From Deltaproteobacteria bacterium (GTDB lineage: Bacteria; Desulfobacterota; Desulfomonilia; UBA1062): a DNA stretch of 50,559 nucleotides. How positions within the stretch are numbered: position 1 is the stretch's first letter; each line of letters starts with the position of its first letter. A program made the translations under genes and the position numbers. The DNA lies in assembly GCA_011046135.1 (NCBI GenBank), contig DSBG01000166.1, forward strand, positions 1 through 50,559. Direction: 5' to 3'. The notes under the pieces are model-generated. The model was not told the DNA's origin. It was given only the letters and a program-made list of their open reading frames with translations, and did not search any database. Positions 40,447-50,556 of the stretch are shown here, one piece after another.

Positions 40447-42171
40447 TCAACAGGGCATGCCCGTTCCACAAGTCAGGATTTGGCCTGTCCTGCTTTGGTC
40501 TCGATACAGCGTAATTCCTCTGCACTTCAGTTCATAGGCGAGCAGAATCGCATCCCTGATGACGTCAGGGGAGACCGAGGCGGGAAGGTTTATCGTTTTG
40601 GAAACGGCATTGTCCGTGTACTGCTGGAATGCCCCCTGAATCCTCACGTGCTGGGAAGGCGGGATGAAAAATGCCGGAGAAAAGAGATCACGAAACCATC
40701 CAGGAAGGGGCAGGTCATCGGGAAGCAATCCCTTTTCCCTGACAGAGGTTTCCAGCTCACGGCTCAGAAACCCCTGCTCCTCAGCTACGATCCTGAACAC
40801 CGGGTCAAGTTCCTCCACAGAGATGGAGCCCGGAATAATACGGGTAGAGGAGAGGGCGAACAGGGGTTCAATTCCGGATGAACATCCTGCTATCAAACTC
40901 AGAGAGCCGGTGGGCGCAATGGTCGTGACCGTGGCATTACGCATGGGGGGCCTGGTCTGCCTGTCGTAACTACTTCCGGGGAAATTCGGAAATGCCCCCC
41001 TGGTCACGGCAAGCTCACAAGAGACCTCATGAGCCTTTTCCTGGATGAAGCTCATGATCTTTGAAGCGAGGTCGACACTGGTGTGCGATGCGTAGGGGAT
41101 TCTCATCAAGATGAGCATGTGGGCAAATCCCATGATTCCAAGGCCGATCTTACGGTTTCCCCTGGTAATCGTTTCCACCTGCGGCAAGGGGTAGCGATTT
41201 ATCTCGACAACGTCATCCAGGAACCGGACCGCGAGGGGAATGATCTCGGCGAGTCTGTCCCAGTCGATCTCATGGCCAGCCTGTGTCTTTTTCAGCATCT
41301 TTGTAAGGTTGATGGAGCCAAGCGTACATGATTCGAAGGGCAGGAGCGGCTGTTCACCGCAGGGGTTCGTGCTCTCGATGCTGCCGAGGTGCGGTGTGGG
41401 ATTGTGACGGTTGATCTCGTCGAGGAAGAGAATACCGGGTTCACCGCTGTTCCATATGCACTCGATAATGAGATCGAAGATCCGACGGGCGGAGATTTTA
41501 TTCACGAGGGATGCGTTCCTCGGATTGATGAGGCCGAAGAGGCCATCCTGCTCCACGGCTCGCATGAACTCATCCGTGATGCCCACGGAGAGGTTGAAGC
41601 TCGTGAGCTTCAGCGGGTTTCTTTTCACGGTGATGAATTCTTCGATGTCGGGATGATCGATCCTGAGAACTCCCATGTTGGCCCCACGACGAGTCCCGCC
41701 CTGCTTGATGATATCGGTGGCCGTGTTGAACACCTCCATGAACGATACCGGGCCGCTGGCGATTCCGCTCGTGGTGGAGACGTAATCATTCTTTGGACGC
41801 AGGGAACTGAAGGAGAAGCCGGTTCCTCCCCCGCTCTGGTGAATGAGGGCTGTGTTCTTGACTGCTTCAAAGATGGACTCAAGAGAGTCTTCAACCGGCA
41901 GGACAAAACATGCTGCAAGCTGACCCAGGTCTCGTCCCGCGTTCATGAGGGTCGGTGAGTTGGGCAGAAAGCTCAGCGAGGCCATGGCATCGAAGAAGAG
42001 CCGTTCCCATCGATCGGGGTCTTCATGGAAGGTTTTTTCTGCCCCGGCAACATGACGGGCAACCCGTTCAAACATCTCTTCAGGACGTTCGATCACGATT
42101 CCCCTGTCGTTTTTCCTGAGGTACCTGCTCTCGAGAATTCTCAGGGCGCTTTCTCCCCACTCATGCACCAT
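40447..42171 (-). CDS. nrdJ: Adenosylcobalamin-dependent (class II) ribonucleoside-diphosphate reductase, short form
   Basis: LESRYLRKNDRGIVIERPEEMFERVA; FLPNSPTLMNAGRDLGQLAACFVLPVEDS; STNPCGEQPLLPFESCTLGSINL; C-terminal CRGITLYRDQSRTGQILTCGTGMPC. Confidence 0.92.
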   Translation of the reverse strand: MVHEWGESALRILESRYLRKNDRGIVIERPEEMFERVARHVAGAEKTFHEDPDRWERLFFDAMASLSFLPNSPTLMNAGRDLGQLAACFVLPVEDSLESIFEAVKNTALIHQSGGGTGFSFSSLRPKNDYVSTTSGIASGPVSFMEVFNTATDIIKQGGTRRGANMGVLRIDHPDIEEFITVKRNPLKLTSFNLSVGITDEFMRAVEQDGLFGLINPRNASLVNKISARRIFDLIIECIWNSGEPGILFLDEINRHNPTPHLGSIESTNPCGEQPLLPFESCTLGSINLTKMLKKTQAGHEIDWDRLAEIIPLAVRFLDDVVEINRYPLPQVETITRGNRKIGLGIMGFAHMLILMRIPYASHTSVDLASKIMSFIQEKAHEVSCELAVTRGAFPNFPGSSYDRQTRPPMRNATVTTIAPTGSLSLIAGCSSGIEPLFALSSTRIIPGSISVEELDPVFRIVAEEQGFLSRELETSVREKGLLPDDLPLPGWFRDLFSPAFFIPPSQHVRIQGAFQQYTDNAVSKTINLPASVSPDVIRDAILLAYELKCRGITLYRDQSRTGQILTCGTGMPC

Positions 42172-42442
42172 GAATTCGATCCTTTCGCAACCATGGATGC
42201 CCGCGTTGAAGACACGGGGATTCTGTCTCTGGCGATATGATACCGCGGTTTCTCTCTGCATGCAATGGAGGAGGATTCAAACCGGAAACAACACGGGATC
42301 GATGAGGTGCCCGGGGAAGCGCCAAAGGACAAGGACATGAGATTGTATCGTAACAATAGCATAAATTACCAAAAATGGTACGCCCAGAAACGGGATAGAC
42401 CCCTGATAAGTACTTGACTTGGCTGTGGGATATGGCTAATTG

Positions 42443-42486: not shown

Positions 42487-43464
42487 ATGAGACAAGAAGC
42501 TCTTTCCAGGGGAGAGGGTATCCCTCTCTATTTGCAGATACGGGATTACCTCAGGGGACAGATCACCTCGGGAACACTCAAGGAAAGGCGGCTTCCGCCT
42601 GTTCGGGTAATGGCCCAGCGTTTCAAAGTAAATCCGAACACCGTGCACAGGGCGTATCAGGAATTGAAGCGGGAGGGGATGATACTCCCGGCAGTCGGAA
42701 GAGGGACCTTTGTGAGTACCGATGTGAAGGGGCTGCAACGGGAAACCCGGGCAGTACTCCTTCGCAAGGCCATAGAGCGATCAGTTGAAGAAGCCCTCTC
42801 CCTGGAGTTCTCCCTTGAGGAGTTCGAAGAAGCCACTCGGACGTATGTTCGGGAAAAAAAGGAATTCATGAAGAAGCTTTCTCTGGTGTTCATCGAGTGC
42901 AACATCGAACAACTCACCTATTTCACTGAACACCTGGATCTCGATCCCCACCTGAAGAGAGTCCCTGTCCTGCTTCAGGATCTGAGGAACAGGGACAAGC
43001 AGGTCATGAGACTGATCCAGCGATCAGATATCGTTGTCACGAGCTTTTACCACCTCGATGAGGTTCACCAGAGATTAGCAAGCCTGGAAATGCCCATCAT
43101 CGGGATCAACCTCGAACCAGAGATGAAGACATTGATCGACATCGCGAAGATCCCCGCCCATTCCACGGTCGGGATCGTCACCACGTCTGAGCAGTTTCGA
43201 AAAGAGATCCGGGGCATCCTGCACCACGCCGGAATCCAGTTCGCTTCTCTTCTCGAAACGAGTTCGGACGACCCCCGCCTGATCACGGACATCGTACAAC
43301 AATGCAGCGCAGTGCTCGTTTCTCCCCACCAGGAAGGAAGTGTTCGCGGTGTAGTGAAGCCGGGAACGAAGGTGATCGAGTTTGTCTTCAGTCCCGACAA
43401 GACATCCATCAACAATCTCAAGGTTGCCCTGCTTGAACTGAAGCGAGGGGTGAGGAACGAGTAG
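42487..43464 (+). CDS. GntR family transcriptional regulator with large non-standard C-terminal domain
   Basis: PLYLQIRDYLRGQITSGTLKERRLPPVRVMAQRFKVNPNTVHRAYQELKREGMI wHTH; ~200 aa C-terminal domain unlike FadR, UTRA or MocR. Confidence 0.9.
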   Translation: MRQEALSRGEGIPLYLQIRDYLRGQITSGTLKERRLPPVRVMAQRFKVNPNTVHRAYQELKREGMILPAVGRGTFVSTDVKGLQRETRAVLLRKAIERSVEEALSLEFSLEEFEEATRTYVREKKEFMKKLSLVFIECNIEQLTYFTEHLDLDPHLKRVPVLLQDLRNRDKQVMRLIQRSDIVVTSFYHLDEVHQRLASLEMPIIGINLEPEMKTLIDIAKIPAHSTVGIVTTSEQFRKEIRGILHHAGIQFASLLETSSDDPRLITDIVQQCSAVLVSPHQEGSVRGVVKPGTKVIEFVFSPDKTSINNLKVALLELKRGVRNE

Positions 43465-43556
43465 AAAAGGGGTGAACCGGATGCAGTGCACCGGATGAAA
43501 AATGAATGCCACTCGGAAACGTATCCGAATGGCGCCTGAGGAAGGGAGGGGTTTCT

Positions 43557-44798
43557 ATGACGATCAGAGTAGCGGAACTGACGTTTCTCGAACACTTTGC
43601 CCCGCGCTATGGGATCCCAGTTCCTCGGCATGTTTCAGGAACCGTGAGCAGGGCAGAGATCAAGAAGGTCTTGAGCGAATGGGGCGGAACAGCACTCGTC
43701 AAGCCGGATGTCCTCACAGGAAAGCGGGGAAGGGCCGGTGCGGTGGTTGAGGTGAGCACCGTCCAGGATGCTCTCCGCGAACTGAAACGTGTCTCGGGTC
43801 TCGAGATCAACGGACATGTCCCCAGGACCGCATACCTCGTGGAGAAGATCCCGGCAGACTATGAGATCTTTACGGCGATTACGTACAACTCGTCGTACCT
43901 GTCACCCACCTTCACCGTCTCTCTAGAGGGAGGAATGGATATCGAGGATGTGGTAGAGGAAAAAAAGATCACGATCCCGGTGGATATCTTCCGGGGGCTC
44001 GACGCCTACCAGGCAGGAGAGCTGCTCGCAGAACTCGGCTGTTCACAGGCCCTCATCAGTCCGCTCTCACGGCACATGGTCTCGCTCTGGGATCTCTTCA
44101 TCTCAACAGGCATGATCTCAGCCGAAATCAATCCCTGGCGGGTAACGTCCCAGGGAAATGCCGTTGCCTGCGATTTCAAAGGGATAGTCGATGAGGCGAA
44201 TTTCAAGGCAAAGGCTCCTGGAATCGAATATCCTGATTACCCTGAATCGATCTCGCTCTTTGAGGAAGAGATGGCTGCATGGAGTGCATCGAGCCATCAG
44301 GGACAGGCCCATGTCTCGGATCTCGGTGGAAAAAAGATCCTTCCCATCATCTTCGGAGGGGGTGCATCGACGATCATCACCGAGACCCTCGAGGTCGCAG
44401 GGGGTGATCCCATGTTTCTCTCAGACTTCGGGGGAAATCCTCCCTATGAGAGGATGCTCCAGAGCGCGAAACTCTGCTTCAATCACAAGCTCTCCCAGGC
44501 AAAGCTGCTCCTCATCCTCGGAGGAAAAGCAAACAACACATACATCGATGTCACATTCAGCGCCATAGCCGATGCCCTGCTGAGTTTTGCCGAGGAGCAC
44601 GGACCACTATCCCTTCCCGTCGTGGTCGGAAGAGGTGGCCCAAGGCTGGTCAAGGGGTTGCTCGCCCTGAAGCAGGCCCTTGAATACCTGAGGTTGCCCC
44701 ATGTCATTTTCGGTCCCGATACACCGGTGACTCTCGTGGCAGAGTATGCGGCAAAGCTGGCGAACGCTCTGCCGGCAGAAAGCGAGGTGAAGTCATGA
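43557..44798 (+). CDS. ATP-citrate lyase-like ATP-grasp (AclB-like / succinyl-CoA synthetase beta-like) subunit
   Basis: ALVKPDVLTGKRGRAGAVVEV; SAEINPWRV; PIIFGGGASTIITETLEVAGG; LILGGKANNTYIDVTFSAIADAL; VVVGRGGPRLVKGL. Confidence 0.82.
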   Translation: MTIRVAELTFLEHFAPRYGIPVPRHVSGTVSRAEIKKVLSEWGGTALVKPDVLTGKRGRAGAVVEVSTVQDALRELKRVSGLEINGHVPRTAYLVEKIPADYEIFTAITYNSSYLSPTFTVSLEGGMDIEDVVEEKKITIPVDIFRGLDAYQAGELLAELGCSQALISPLSRHMVSLWDLFISTGMISAEINPWRVTSQGNAVACDFKGIVDEANFKAKAPGIEYPDYPESISLFEEEMAAWSASSHQGQAHVSDLGGKKILPIIFGGGASTIITETLEVAGGDPMFLSDFGGNPPYERMLQSAKLCFNHKLSQAKLLLILGGKANNTYIDVTFSAIADALLSFAEEHGPLSLPVVVGRGGPRLVKGLLALKQALEYLRLPHVIFGPDTPVTLVAEYAAKLANALPAESEVKS

Positions 44799-46867
44799 GA
44801 GCAAAGACGCTGTCGGATTTCCTGAAAGAGGGAGACAGGGTTGCGGTTTCCAACATTACGGGGAGGGAAGCATCGCGGGTGTCTGAACAAAGCCAGAAAT
44901 ACTGCGGAAATATCGTTGGTGGTTGGGCGCTCGGGAAGAGCGGATCGACCATCGAGACGTCCCGCGGATCAATCCCGGTCTATGCGACGTTCGAAGAACT
45001 CATGAAGCAGACTCCTTCCGAAAGTCGTCCCAACAAGATCATCATTTATTCACCTCCCCAGGCCGTGTATGGAGAGATCAAGGAGGTTGTGGATCACGGC
45101 AGGGAACACATCGAGACGATCTTCGTGATCACCGAGCATGTATCGGTGGAGGTGACCTCGAAGCTCCACGCGATCTGCAGTGAAGCGGGCATCGATGTCG
45201 TCGGGTGCAACACGCTGGGCATGATCAATGTACACGACAGGGTGCGCGTCGGTGCCGTTGGGGGTGACTCGCCCCAGGAGACCTTTATTCCGGGATCCGT
45301 GACGATTCTCTCAAATTCTGGGAACATGGTGAACACCATTGCGAGCTACCTTCTGGCTTCAGGAATGGGTATTTCGTATGGCATCTCCACGGGAAAGGAC
45401 ATCCTCATCCTCACCCCGCTCAAGGATCTGATCTTCCTGGCGGAGACGGATCCGCGTACCAAGGTGATCGTGCTCTACATCGAACCCGGTGGTCTCTATG
45501 AGCATGAAGCCATTGAAGCGATCAAGACTCGTGGCCTTTCAAAACCCGTCGTGGTCTATGTTGCCGGGAAGATCGCCGAGACATACAATGTCTCCCTGGG
45601 TCATGCGGGTGCCGTTGTCGAGGGGAATGTCACGTCTGCATCGGCGAAGATGCGAGCGTTTGATGCCTACTTCGGAATCGAGGCATTCTCTCCCGACAGA
45701 AGATACAAGAAGACGGAACAGCTCCTGGACGTCATGAACAGGGGAGTTCGCGTAACCACGCTTCACCACATTCCCAAGGCGATGAGGCTCATCTGTGACA
45801 CCCTCGGTATCGACCGCGACATCAGCAGCGCCAAGCCATTGAAGCTGAACCCGTGGTTCGTGAACCTCGGAGATGTCGCAAAGCACATCCCCCATGAGCT
45901 GGACCTCGCGCGAGGAACCATCCCTGAGCCATATGCCCAGCAGGTGAAAGAGCAGGAGCAGGCACGACTCGGCATCAGCATGGCTCGTCAGTCCATGAGA
46001 AATGCTTCGCACGCGAGCTCAAACGACGGGGTCACTCCGAGGATCCATGGGTATTCTCTTATGGATGTCATGGCAAAAAAATCCTTTGTCGCCTCCCTTG
46101 TGCTCTCACTCACGGGAGAACTGCCGCGGGATGAGTTTGAGGAGCACCTTGCTCAGATGACCTTTATCGCTTCCCTTACGAACGGACCCGGAACCATATC
46201 TGCCCAGGGTGCCAAATTGTCCTGTTCTGCGGGAAACTCCCCGAACACCGCCATAATCGCCACCCTTGCCGCCATGGGGAGTGTCCATGGGGGAAACGGC
46301 TCACAGGCCGTAAAATTTCTGCTGGATGTCTTCGCCGAGACCGGTATCGAAGATCCCTATGACAGCTCCGTTGATGTGAAGGACCTTGCACAAAAGGCAG
46401 CTGAGGAATTCAAGCGGAAAAAACTGGCTGCCAAGGAGGCCTCCCTCGACTATGCACGGATTCCCTGTCTCGGACACCCCATATTTAAAAAGGACCCGGT
46501 GAACCATGATCCCAGGGAGCAGGTCATCCATGCCTTCATCACATCGCAAGGGAAGTGCAATATTTTCCTTGAGTTCTACCACGCGCTGGTCGAGGCACTC
46601 AAGGAAAATGGTACCACGAATACGGTGATGGCAGTTAATGTTGATGCCGCGCTGGCATGCGTGTGGCTCGGAATCTGCTGGAGACACCTGAGGGAGAAAC
46701 GCATGACCATCCAGCGGGCAATGGATATCCCGTTCATCGTGTTTGCCCTCGGCAGGGCAGCCGGCGGTGCGGCCGAGTTTCTGGATCACCAGGATTTCGG
46801 TACAACCATGGACATGCGCATTCCCACGAGCGAGTGCCGGTCACTCACCAGGTCAAGGAGCCTGTGA
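44795..46867 (+). CDS. ATP-citrate lyase-like CoA-binding + citrate-synthase-homology (AclA-like) subunit
   Basis: SNSGNMVNTIASYLLASG; SLGHAGAVVEG (phospho-His region); C-terminal GSVHGGNGSQAV, CLGHPIFKKDPVNHDPR, MAVNVDAALACVWLG, FALGRAAGGAAEFLDHQ; ATGA overlap with the upstream gene. Confidence 0.82.
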   Translation: MRAKTLSDFLKEGDRVAVSNITGREASRVSEQSQKYCGNIVGGWALGKSGSTIETSRGSIPVYATFEELMKQTPSESRPNKIIIYSPPQAVYGEIKEVVDHGREHIETIFVITEHVSVEVTSKLHAICSEAGIDVVGCNTLGMINVHDRVRVGAVGGDSPQETFIPGSVTILSNSGNMVNTIASYLLASGMGISYGISTGKDILILTPLKDLIFLAETDPRTKVIVLYIEPGGLYEHEAIEAIKTRGLSKPVVVYVAGKIAETYNVSLGHAGAVVEGNVTSASAKMRAFDAYFGIEAFSPDRRYKKTEQLLDVMNRGVRVTTLHHIPKAMRLICDTLGIDRDISSAKPLKLNPWFVNLGDVAKHIPHELDLARGTIPEPYAQQVKEQEQARLGISMARQSMRNASHASSNDGVTPRIHGYSLMDVMAKKSFVASLVLSLTGELPRDEFEEHLAQMTFIASLTNGPGTISAQGAKLSCSAGNSPNTAIIATLAAMGSVHGGNGSQAVKFLLDVFAETGIEDPYDSSVDVKDLAQKAAEEFKRKKLAAKEASLDYARIPCLGHPIFKKDPVNHDPREQVIHAFITSQGKCNIFLEFYHALVEALKENGTTNTVMAVNVDAALACVWLGICWRHLREKRMTIQRAMDIPFIVFALGRAAGGAAEFLDHQDFGTTMDMRIPTSECRSLTRSRSL

Positions 46868-47619: not shown

Positions 47620-49398
47620 TCAGGCGTCTGCGAGCAGGTCTTCGCTGACCTGAATCTCCATGGTAAGAAGACCCTGGGAAAGGGTTTTCCCCTGGTTGTC
47701 CACGAGGAGAGACACGGTTCCTCCACCTCCCAGGGCGCCTTCCAGGATGAAGTTGAGTGAACACAGGTTGTCCAGACGATAGCGGGTGACAGGACCTTTG
47801 ACATTCGTCCTGAAGAAGTGTGCAACCTTCTCTGCAGTCAGTTCCCTCACGATCTCGGGATAGAATTCTGGCTTGAGTGCCGCAACCCCGATGTTGCACG
47901 TATCACCTTTGTCGCCGGAACGGGCGTGAGCTATCCGGTACAGGGGGACCGTTACCCGTTTCCCTGAACCCAGGAAAGGTGGTTCAGTGTCTTCCGGCCT
48001 GATGAGAGGGTCTCCGGAAGGCCCGGATTCACACGGGAAGAACGTTTCTGTTCCCTCGAACACCATACGGGCTGTGACATTGTTCCTCGGGATCAGTGCA
48101 GGCCAGAATCCGAATGCAGGAGAGACATCGGGACGGCCACCCATGACCGTCACTCCGGGGGGGCCGGCGAGTACAAGGCCGGAGATCTCCCGACTCATGG
48201 ACTCCAGCGGCTTCTTTTCTGTTGCACGCCCTGCAAATCTCAGGATTATCTCGTTGGGTTCCACCCGGGGTGCCGCAGATTCACCCCAGCAGGAATTATA
48301 CCCCACGAGGTCGGTGCGCTTCTCGATGAAGTCTCCCTCGACCCTGTCCCAGAACATCTCGGCGAACTTCCTCCCCTTGGCCACCACGTCAGGTCCGCTG
48401 ACCACAAGCGGGGCAACGACCTTGTATCCGGCATCGTAGGTTACCGACACCTTCAGAAAAGGGGTTGGCTTCTGTCCTCGTGCATTCTCTACACGCACCC
48501 TATCTTGTCCCAAATCGTCGAGGGTGAACGACGTGAAGTCTGCGACGACATCGGGGCAGATGTAGACCTGGGGATTCCCGATCTCGTAGAGGAGCTGCTC
48601 CTTCGCAGTTCTGCTGCTCACTAATCCGCCTGTTCCCGGGTGTTTGGTGAGGACGAAGGATCCATCGCGCTGCATCTCCACAAGCGGGAAGCCTATGTTG
48701 TGGTAGCTTTGGACTTCTCTCCACAGGGTGTAGTTGCCGCCCGTGGACTGGGTTCCGCACTCCACGAGGTGGCCGGCAACCAGGGCGGAGGCAAGCTTGT
48801 CGTACTCCTCCCACCCCCACCCGAATTCGTACGCAAAGGCGGCAACCACTCCTGCTGCATCATAGGTGCGTCCCGTGACAACAATGCGTGCCCCTTTCTC
48901 GAGGGCGGCGGCGATGGGGCGTGCACCGAGGTAGGCATTGGCTGATATGACCTTGTCCATGATGGGAACCAGAGACTCGCCGCTGTCCTGGTGGGTGAAC
49001 TCGCACCCTTTTTCCTGCAGTTCCTTCAATCGAGGCATGAGGTCATCACCATCGACAAGGGCAACCGGGAGCCGGATCCCCTGCTCATCCATGACCGCTT
49101 CTAGCGCCCGGGCACATGCCACGGGGTTTATCCCCCCGGCATTTGCGATCACGGTGATGTCGTGTTCGGCGATGTAAGAGAGAAGGCGGCCCATGGCAGA
49201 GACGAAATCCCGAGCATAGCCTGCTTGAGCGTTCTTTGCTTTCTGTCGGGCGAGGATGATCATGGTGATCTCGGCGAGGTAATCCATGGTCAGGTAGTCG
49301 ATGGGCCCTCCCTTTACCTGTCTCTCGATAGCCGCCAGTTCATCACCCCAGAATCCACTCCCATTGGCAACAATGATGGGTTCCCTGTTTCTTCTCAT
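47620..49398 (-). CDS. AtuA-family (acyclic terpene utilization, DUF1446) protein with AtuA-like C-terminal domain
   Basis: PIIVANGSGFWGDELAAIERQV; DYLAEITMIILARQKAKN; NAGGINPVACARALEAV; C-terminal LYRIAHARSGDKGDTCNIGVAAL. Confidence 0.9.
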   Translation of the reverse strand: MRRNREPIIVANGSGFWGDELAAIERQVKGGPIDYLTMDYLAEITMIILARQKAKNAQAGYARDFVSAMGRLLSYIAEHDITVIANAGGINPVACARALEAVMDEQGIRLPVALVDGDDLMPRLKELQEKGCEFTHQDSGESLVPIMDKVISANAYLGARPIAAALEKGARIVVTGRTYDAAGVVAAFAYEFGWGWEEYDKLASALVAGHLVECGTQSTGGNYTLWREVQSYHNIGFPLVEMQRDGSFVLTKHPGTGGLVSSRTAKEQLLYEIGNPQVYICPDVVADFTSFTLDDLGQDRVRVENARGQKPTPFLKVSVTYDAGYKVVAPLVVSGPDVVAKGRKFAEMFWDRVEGDFIEKRTDLVGYNSCWGESAAPRVEPNEIILRFAGRATEKKPLESMSREISGLVLAGPPGVTVMGGRPDVSPAFGFWPALIPRNNVTARMVFEGTETFFPCESGPSGDPLIRPEDTEPPFLGSGKRVTVPLYRIAHARSGDKGDTCNIGVAALKPEFYPEIVRELTAEKVAHFFRTNVKGPVTRYRLDNLCSLNFILEGALGGGGTVSLLVDNQGKTLSQGLLTMEIQVSEDLLADA

Positions 49399-49527
49399 CT
49401 GTGACTCTCCTTTACCCCTGAGCATTCAGCTCCGCTGACGTAAAAAAACTCAGGGAGATGTTCGCATCATACCTGAACCATAGATCAGGCTCCAAGGTGT
49501 GCTGTTTTCCCTACAGGCACGTATTTA

Positions 49528-50556
49528 TCAGGTCTTTTTCAGCTCTGCGAGAATCTCCTGGGCACGATCCATCCTGACCTTACCTTCCTCGACCATCCGT
49601 CTGGCGACCGTGTCGATCAGGTCTCCTTCGGCGCCCGCCATGACCGCAATGTTCTGGGCGTGCAAGGACATGTGGCCGCGCTGGATCCCTTCGGATGCCA
49701 GAGTCCTCATGGCTATGAGGTTCTGGCACAGCCCCAGGGCAACGATGATCTCCCCGAGCTCGGTTGCGGTTTTGACCCCGAGAATCTTGATCACCACCTT
49801 TGACAGCGGATGCAGGGCCGTAGCTCCTCCGACAAGGCCGACCGCCATGGGAAGTTCGAGGGTTCCTGAGATATCCCCCTCCGCTGTCTTTTCCCATTTC
49901 GTCATGGCCCGGTACCGGCCTGATCTGGCCGCATAGCTGTGCGCTCCCGCTTCGATGGCGCGGAAGTCATTGCCAGTCGCGATAACGAGCGGAGTGATGG
50001 CATTCATGATCCCCTTGTTGTGGGTGGCTGCCCGGTGGGGGTCAGCATCCCCGAATGCCCAGGCATAGATCATTCCGTCGACGATGTCGTCTGCCCCTTT
50101 AAGGGTTCCCTTCAGTGCGTCTTTCTTGACTGTGACCCGTGCCCTGCACAGGCGGCGATCCGCGAGATTCGACAGGATCCGCAGGTACACCTTTCCGCCT
50201 GTTATGGCCTCGATGGTTGGCGCAAGGGCCTCTGCCATGGTGTTGACCGCATTGGCACCCATGGCATCACGGACATCCACGATGAGGTGCGAGATCACCA
50301 TGGGACCTGCAGCGGTATCGATCACCCTGACCTCGAGATCTTTCGCTCCTCCGCCGAGGTTCACCAGCACCGGGTCCAGTGTGTTTGCACTGGCGAGGAT
50401 CTCGTCTTTCTTTTCAAGGATCTTCAGTCGTGCACTCTGGGGGTCAGCAAGATTGACTGTCTGGATCTGTGCGATCATGAGGGGACCCGAGTTGCTCGTG
50501 AAGAACCCGCCGCCGCTGCGAGCCATGCCGGCCCCATTGGATGCCCCTGCGACCAC
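49528..50556 (-). CDS. mvaA: Hydroxymethylglutaryl-CoA reductase, degradative (class II), N-terminus beyond window edge
   Basis: [80 protein letters not shown]. Confidence 0.93.

Follow-up and report, generated by a model that had tools for sequence, protein, structure and literature searches.

The two adjacent genes at positions 43557 to 46867 of the window probably encode a short type of ATP-dependent citrate lyase, with citrate as the likely substrate, as judged by comparison of sequences. The pair appears to be a short form of ATP-citrate lyase (ACL) that is as yet uncharacterised and stands next to type II ACL. What would be new about it is its architecture: the clade stands apart and has only one lyase module, in which all residues of the catalytic type are kept. 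No description of this compact two-gene form, or of such a form in the phyla concerned, was found in the literature searched, which consisted mostly of journals readable without a subscription.

Gene Organization and Domain Content

The window, i.e., the whole stretch of DNA analysed, comprises the complete contig (50,559 bases) of a 2.92 Mb genome in which the gene pair is present in a single copy. Both open reading frames lie on the forward strand; the first (43557..44798) encodes an ATP-grasp/citrate-binding subunit of 413 aa that resembles AclB or the large subunit of citryl-CoA synthetase (CCS), and the second (44795..46867) encodes a large subunit of 690 aa consisting of a CoA-ligase alpha part and one citrate synthase (CS)-homology module. 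The two genes are coupled by an ATGA overlap at 44795. An earlier note on this DNA had described two adjacent, coupled genes with AclB/AclA architecture, and its coordinates, overlap and domain content were all recovered here. The longest open reading frame of the ATP-grasp gene begins at 43506; the start at 43557 was preferred because a ribosome-binding-like run, GGGAGGGG, is located at 43544-43551, about 7–13 bases 5' of it, and because two relatives from the same family carry an ATP-grasp subunit with identical 413-aa length and start.

The ATP-grasp subunit matched the Pfam families ATP-grasp_2 and Citrate_bind, and the large subunit matched CoA_binding, Succ_CoA_lig, Ligase_CoA and Citrate_synt, in all cases above the curated cut-offs. 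The score against PF16114 (54.9 bits vs. a cut-off of 26.8) revealed the ATP-grasp plus citrate-binding subunit of an ATP-citrate lyase in the broad sense, and a CoA-ligase alpha part with a phospho-histidine, fused to a CS-homology module, was recovered by Pfam, PDB profile and alignment alike. No NCBIfam model reached its cut-off for either subunit, and the scores were only 100.8 bits with the SucC model (cut-off 370) and 144.6 bits with the SucD model (cut-off 336). Plain succinyl-CoA synthetase (SucCD), which has the ancestral fold and the phospho-His GHAG motif in common with the pair but is devoid of a CS module and forms a separate, starred clade in the trees, was ruled out on the basis of the domains, the model scores and the tree placement.

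With regard to solved structures, the nearest to the pair, both in sequence and in fold, were the CCS (6hxq) and the citryl-CoA lyase (CCL; 6hxp) of Hydrogenobacter. The top PDB sequence match of the ATP-grasp subunit was 6hxq_B (E 4.9e-40; profile E 2.4e-57), the N-terminal part of the large subunit matched 6hxq_A (E 8.6e-43), and its C-terminal part matched 6hxp, to which the CS module also showed a profile match (E 1.8e-14). Fold searches with the predicted models (pLDDT 82 and 83) agreed with the sequence searches: 6hxp was the top PDB fold match of the CS module (pLDDT 82; E 3.2e-9) and 6hxq_B that of the ATP-grasp subunit, the model of which was used only for ranking the nearest matches because of its modest pTM of 0.56. 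Pocket residues and CS-type catalytic residues are also shared with the Hydrogenobacter enzymes. These, however, are three separate proteins, the small CCS subunit being without a lyase module, whereas in the short form the lyase is joined to the small ligase subunit in one chain; the large ligase subunit of CCS is about 28% identical to the short-form ATP-grasp subunit.

Phylogenetic Placement of the Short Form

The phylum search also yielded proteins of about 903 aa that adjoin an ATP-grasp protein of 421 aa (large subunits L023–L041). These were taken as type II ACL, an enzyme of the tubeworm-symbiont type that is only "tentatively named" so (PMC3522073), because they match the peptides NGFEAIA and VAKEEWF, which are encoded by the published type II primers (PMC3522073). 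The former reads NGYEAIA in most of them and is exact in one, while VAKEEWF is matched at five of seven positions; overall, the primer peptides gave 5/7 and 6/7 in type II rows, compared to 3/7 and at most 5/7 in short rows. When compared with the type II large subunit, the CS module from the window produced two matches, a weak one at about 390–603 and another of 35–40% identity at about 630–903, and the first type II CS copy lacks the HGG, GHP, DPR and NVD motifs. Based on this match pattern and motif loss, type II ACL possesses one degenerate and one intact CS copy, and the short form one intact copy.

Both types consist of two adjacent genes and share the motifs DFGGNPP, ANNT, GRGGP, NGPGTISAQ, HGGNG, HP..DPRE and NVDA, together with 38–40% identity in the ATP-grasp subunit and 35–40% in the intact CS module; in two short-form members, they also share an isocitrate dehydrogenase gene adjoining the pair. 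They differ in the large subunit, which in type II comprises about 903 aa and two CS copies, compared with about 690 aa and one copy in the short form, and the latter falls outside the type II clade. With canonical ACL (Chlorobium, Methanothrix, human ACLY), the short form shares the domain order of bacterial AclA/AclB, but identity is limited to 26–28% in the ATP-grasp subunit and 20–22% in the CS module, the clades are separate, and GEYSG, ANFT and FGG of canonical ACL contrast with DFGGN, ANNT and HGG.

In the tree of the ATP-grasp subunit, separate clades, all with starred support, were formed by the short form (19 rows, 97), type II (17 rows, 100), canonical ACL (9 rows, 100) and SucC (9 rows, 100), and the short form and type II were joined at a starred 97. 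The tree of the N-terminal part of the large subunit likewise placed the short form (starred 96) apart from type II (starred 98), and a concatenation of three parts joined both at 99.5, with the short clade itself at 83. A grouping of the short form with canonical ACL was not rejected by the AU test for the ATP-grasp subunit (p 0.545), nor firmly for the concatenation (p 0.085). Type II was thus the nearest group by sequence and tree; since the trees were quick, contained long branches and included only a few canonical rows, its sister relationship to the short form is favoured, not proven. The tree that the earlier note had named as a refutation, with both subunits inside canonical ACL, was not obtained, the short clade lying outside canonical (type I) ACL. 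Separately, a weak Citrate_bind match and an SGNPT loop were noted in SucC-like ATP-grasp proteins (L114, G347:C236:28734-29093, and G066:C108), which lie outside the groups studied and represent an unassigned CoA ligase.

From these comparisons, it may tentatively be proposed that the pair represents a third ATP-citrate lyase architecture, in which a CCS small subunit is directly fused to CCL and a single CS module is truly catalytic; such an enzyme would be similar to the ancestor of type II before its duplication.

Conserved Residues of the Putative Citrate Pocket and the CS Module

In the ATP-grasp subunit, the GGG of the GGGAS motif (residues 267–271; 44355..44369, forward strand, as for all residues below) is invariant across the short form, type II, canonical ACL and CCS, as is Arg359 of GRGGP (44631..44633), the equivalent of human ACLY Arg379. 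In the alignment, N346, F347, T348 and R379 of human ACLY correspond to N326, N327, T328 and R359, respectively, and G309 corresponds to G293. Hence, the positions matching ACLY G281–G283, G309, N346, T348 and R379 are retained, these Gly, Asn, Thr and Arg residues being those which we take to line the citrate pocket of the human enzyme. Pocket positions that are unlike human ACLY agree with CCS. The DFGGNPP motif (residues 290–296; 44424..44444), located at the GEYSG-AP segment of ACLY, reads DIGGNPP in CCS 6hxq_B and DFGGNPP in type II, and the ANNT motif (residues 325–328; 44529..44540), aligned with A345-N346-F347-T348 of ACLY, is likewise ANNT in CCS and type II.

The earlier note had quoted GGGAS, DFGGNPP, RGGP, GHAGAVVEG, HGG, GHPIFKKDP and NVDA, all of which are present, and had deduced a non-citrate substrate from the altered ones by comparison with human ACLY only. 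This deduction finds no support, because the motifs in question are those of CCS, CCL and type II ACL. Its broader proposal of an ACL-like CoA ligase/lyase withstood the comparison with respect to the two subunits, the divergence from canonical ACL and the apparent retention of the catalytic residues, but not with respect to the substrate. That the same two-step mechanism operates on 2-methylcitrate, HMG, citramalate or isopropylmalate instead is therefore quite improbable: the low identity to canonical ACL and a pocket loop unlike that of human ACLY would be in keeping with such a substrate, but that loop agrees with CCS and type II ACL.

Within the CoA-ligase alpha part of the large subunit, His270 of GHAGAVVEG (45602..45604) occupies the phospho-histidine position of the SucD/CCS/ACL family and is invariant in the short form, type II, ACL and CCS. 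The CS module, defined by its matches to 6hxp, extends over approximately residues 396–690 (45980..46864). Here, the alignment identified His498 of HGGNG (46286..46288), a CS/CCL-type His that is F in canonical ACL, His561 of GHP (46475..46477; GHR in CCL and ACL), Arg574 of DPR (46514..46516) and Asp617 of NVDA (46643..46645; human ACLY Asp1026), which are invariant across 19 short-form members. Canonical ACL lacks the first of this CS-type set, and the short form has all four. HGG and DPR are common to CCL, while GHP instead of GHR is, among the groups compared, common only to type II ACL. GHP for GHR counts against a citrate lyase, as does the Gln found in the short form at the position of ACLY His900. 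A Planctomycetota large-subunit gene (L061, 883-2963) was split into two frames, reflecting an error in the assembly or else a broken gene.

These residues also bear on the site of cleavage. Glu114 aligned with the ACLY segment containing Glu599, presumably in the column of E599 itself, a correspondence that would fit cleavage in the ligase part. For human ACLY, the CS module (model 1) and the ligase part (model 2) are disputed alternatives for the site of cleavage, the latter being argued from data on the human enzyme (PMC10115795). If those data applied to the short form, its CS module would be only a platform for assembly and CoA binding, which we consider unlikely: the position of ACLY Phe347, a key residue in model 2, is occupied by Asn in every row of the short form, type II and CCS, and the full CS/CCL set of His498, His561, Arg574 and Asp617 is retained in the CS module. 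Because of this retention and the absence of Phe347, we infer that model 1 is favoured for the short clade.

Distribution and Genomic Context

A scan of named genomes revealed the gene pair at 22 loci; the 21 genomes concerned belong to Deltaproteobacteria, Spirochaetes, Planctomycetes, Kiritimatiellota and Verrucomicrobia, and identity was 54–74% over nearly all 690 residues; two other genera from the family of the source organism carry both proteins at 74–75% identity. The ATP-grasp gene lies immediately 5' of the large gene in every relative where the contig reaches, most commonly with a 4-base overlap, and the recurrence of the pair is more than chance. Its occurrence is patchy, as it was present in 3 of 24 genomes of the source's own family and in 2 of 395 genomes of the phylum sample, which included only two of the three carriers from that family.

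Directly 5' of the pair, on the same strand, a gene for a GntR-family regulator (42487..43464; Pfam GntR) was found. Homologues with 40–53% identity are located just 5' of the pair in L048, L053 and L058 (one planctomycete and two spirochaete loci) and are absent near it in the remaining loci. The gene is probably a linked regulator of the pair; its C-terminal stretch of about 240 residues matched no Pfam family, which, with the recurrence beside the pair, suggests that the regulator is dedicated to it and has a ligand-binding domain not yet described. In two closely related genomes only (L050 and L054, Kiritimatiellota), a gene for an NADP-isocitrate dehydrogenase of 393 aa ends 13 bp 5' of the ATP-grasp gene; the L054 protein scored 617 bits against TIGR00183 (cut-off 567), and the L050 gene begins with nearly identical sequence. 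At the type II loci of the phylum that were checked, a monomeric or dimeric isocitrate dehydrogenase is also encoded just 5' (the monomeric enzyme, of 738–741 aa, confirmed by model in L076 and L079, with a similar protein in L077, and the dimeric one in L081), and published type II rTCA clusters include aconitase and isocitrate dehydrogenase (PMC6315080).

Beyond the pair, no operon was common to all loci, the 5' side repeating only the GntR gene (three further loci) and isocitrate dehydrogenase (two loci). In the source contig, no citrate gene adjoins the pair, and no further reductive TCA gene was present among the annotated genes near it. The ribonucleotide reductase large chain (604 aa; 40447-42261, reverse strand) adjoins the regulator and is unrelated to the pair. 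On the 3' side, 0.75–3.7 kb from the pair, an AtuA-family protein (47620-49425, reverse strand) and an adjoining degradative-type HMG-CoA reductase (49528-50556, reverse strand; cut by the contig end), both assigned by Pfam, possibly form an HMG/isoprenoid catabolic cluster. Their proximity would speak for a substrate other than citrate, while the linkage to isocitrate dehydrogenase in the Kiritimatiellota speaks against it; HMG or mevalonate as the substrate was rejected, since both genes are encoded on the opposite strand and the neighbourhoods of the pair in relatives show no recurrence of such families.

Proposed Reaction and Its Direction

Other contigs of the genome encode an aconitase, an NADP-isocitrate dehydrogenase and a citrate-synthase-family protein, the last of which counts against a citrate lyase. 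The isocitrate dehydrogenase linkage in two members, the type II context and the presence of aconitase and isocitrate dehydrogenase in the genome favour citrate as the substrate. In this family, the established chemistry of CCS and ACL proceeds from ATP via a phospho-histidine to citryl phosphate and citryl-CoA, which is then cleaved. In the short form, the ATP-grasp subunit and the CoA-ligase alpha part would accordingly use ATP to phosphorylate citrate via His270, the resulting citryl phosphate would be transferred to CoA as in CCS, and citryl-CoA would be cleaved into acetyl-CoA and oxaloacetate, with the CS module as the putative site of cleavage.

A complete reductive TCA cycle could not be established for the genome, in which we found no SucCD-type synthetase and no clear 2-oxoglutarate:ferredoxin oxidoreductase, its 2-oxoacid oxidoreductases best matching pyruvate- or VorB-type models. 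The enzyme might work mainly in the citrate-forming direction, conserving ATP while acetyl-CoA enters a TCA route that is incomplete, as has been proposed for the ACL of Desulfobacter postgatei; this we regard as possible, albeit rather doubtful. It is in line with the title of Moller et al. 1987 (cited in PMC12137691), which claims ACL-dependent ATP synthesis during acetate oxidation, with the aconitase and isocitrate dehydrogenase available downstream of citrate, and with the lack of a clear complete reductive cycle. On the other hand, the citrate-synthase-family gene could itself supply citrate, and sequence is silent on direction. Since only the direction is at issue, this alternative is compatible with a citrate lyase of the short type.

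With regard to the organisms concerned, citrate cleavage may easily be overlooked in these Spirochaetes, Planctomycetes, Kiritimatiellota and Deltaproteobacteria, because both subunits remain below the NCBIfam cut-offs and because a survey of carbon fixation employed only the Chlorobium ACL and the Hydrogenobacter CCS/CCL as references for citrate cleavage (PMC9802188). The short clade also bears on the route that led from CCS and CCL to ACL. If the pair is indeed a third ATP-citrate lyase architecture, it would provide a natural case of cleavage by the CS module and not by the ligase part. Its single CCL-like module and the Asn at the position of Phe347 would allow a direct mutational test of the dispute on the role of the CS module (PMC10115795).
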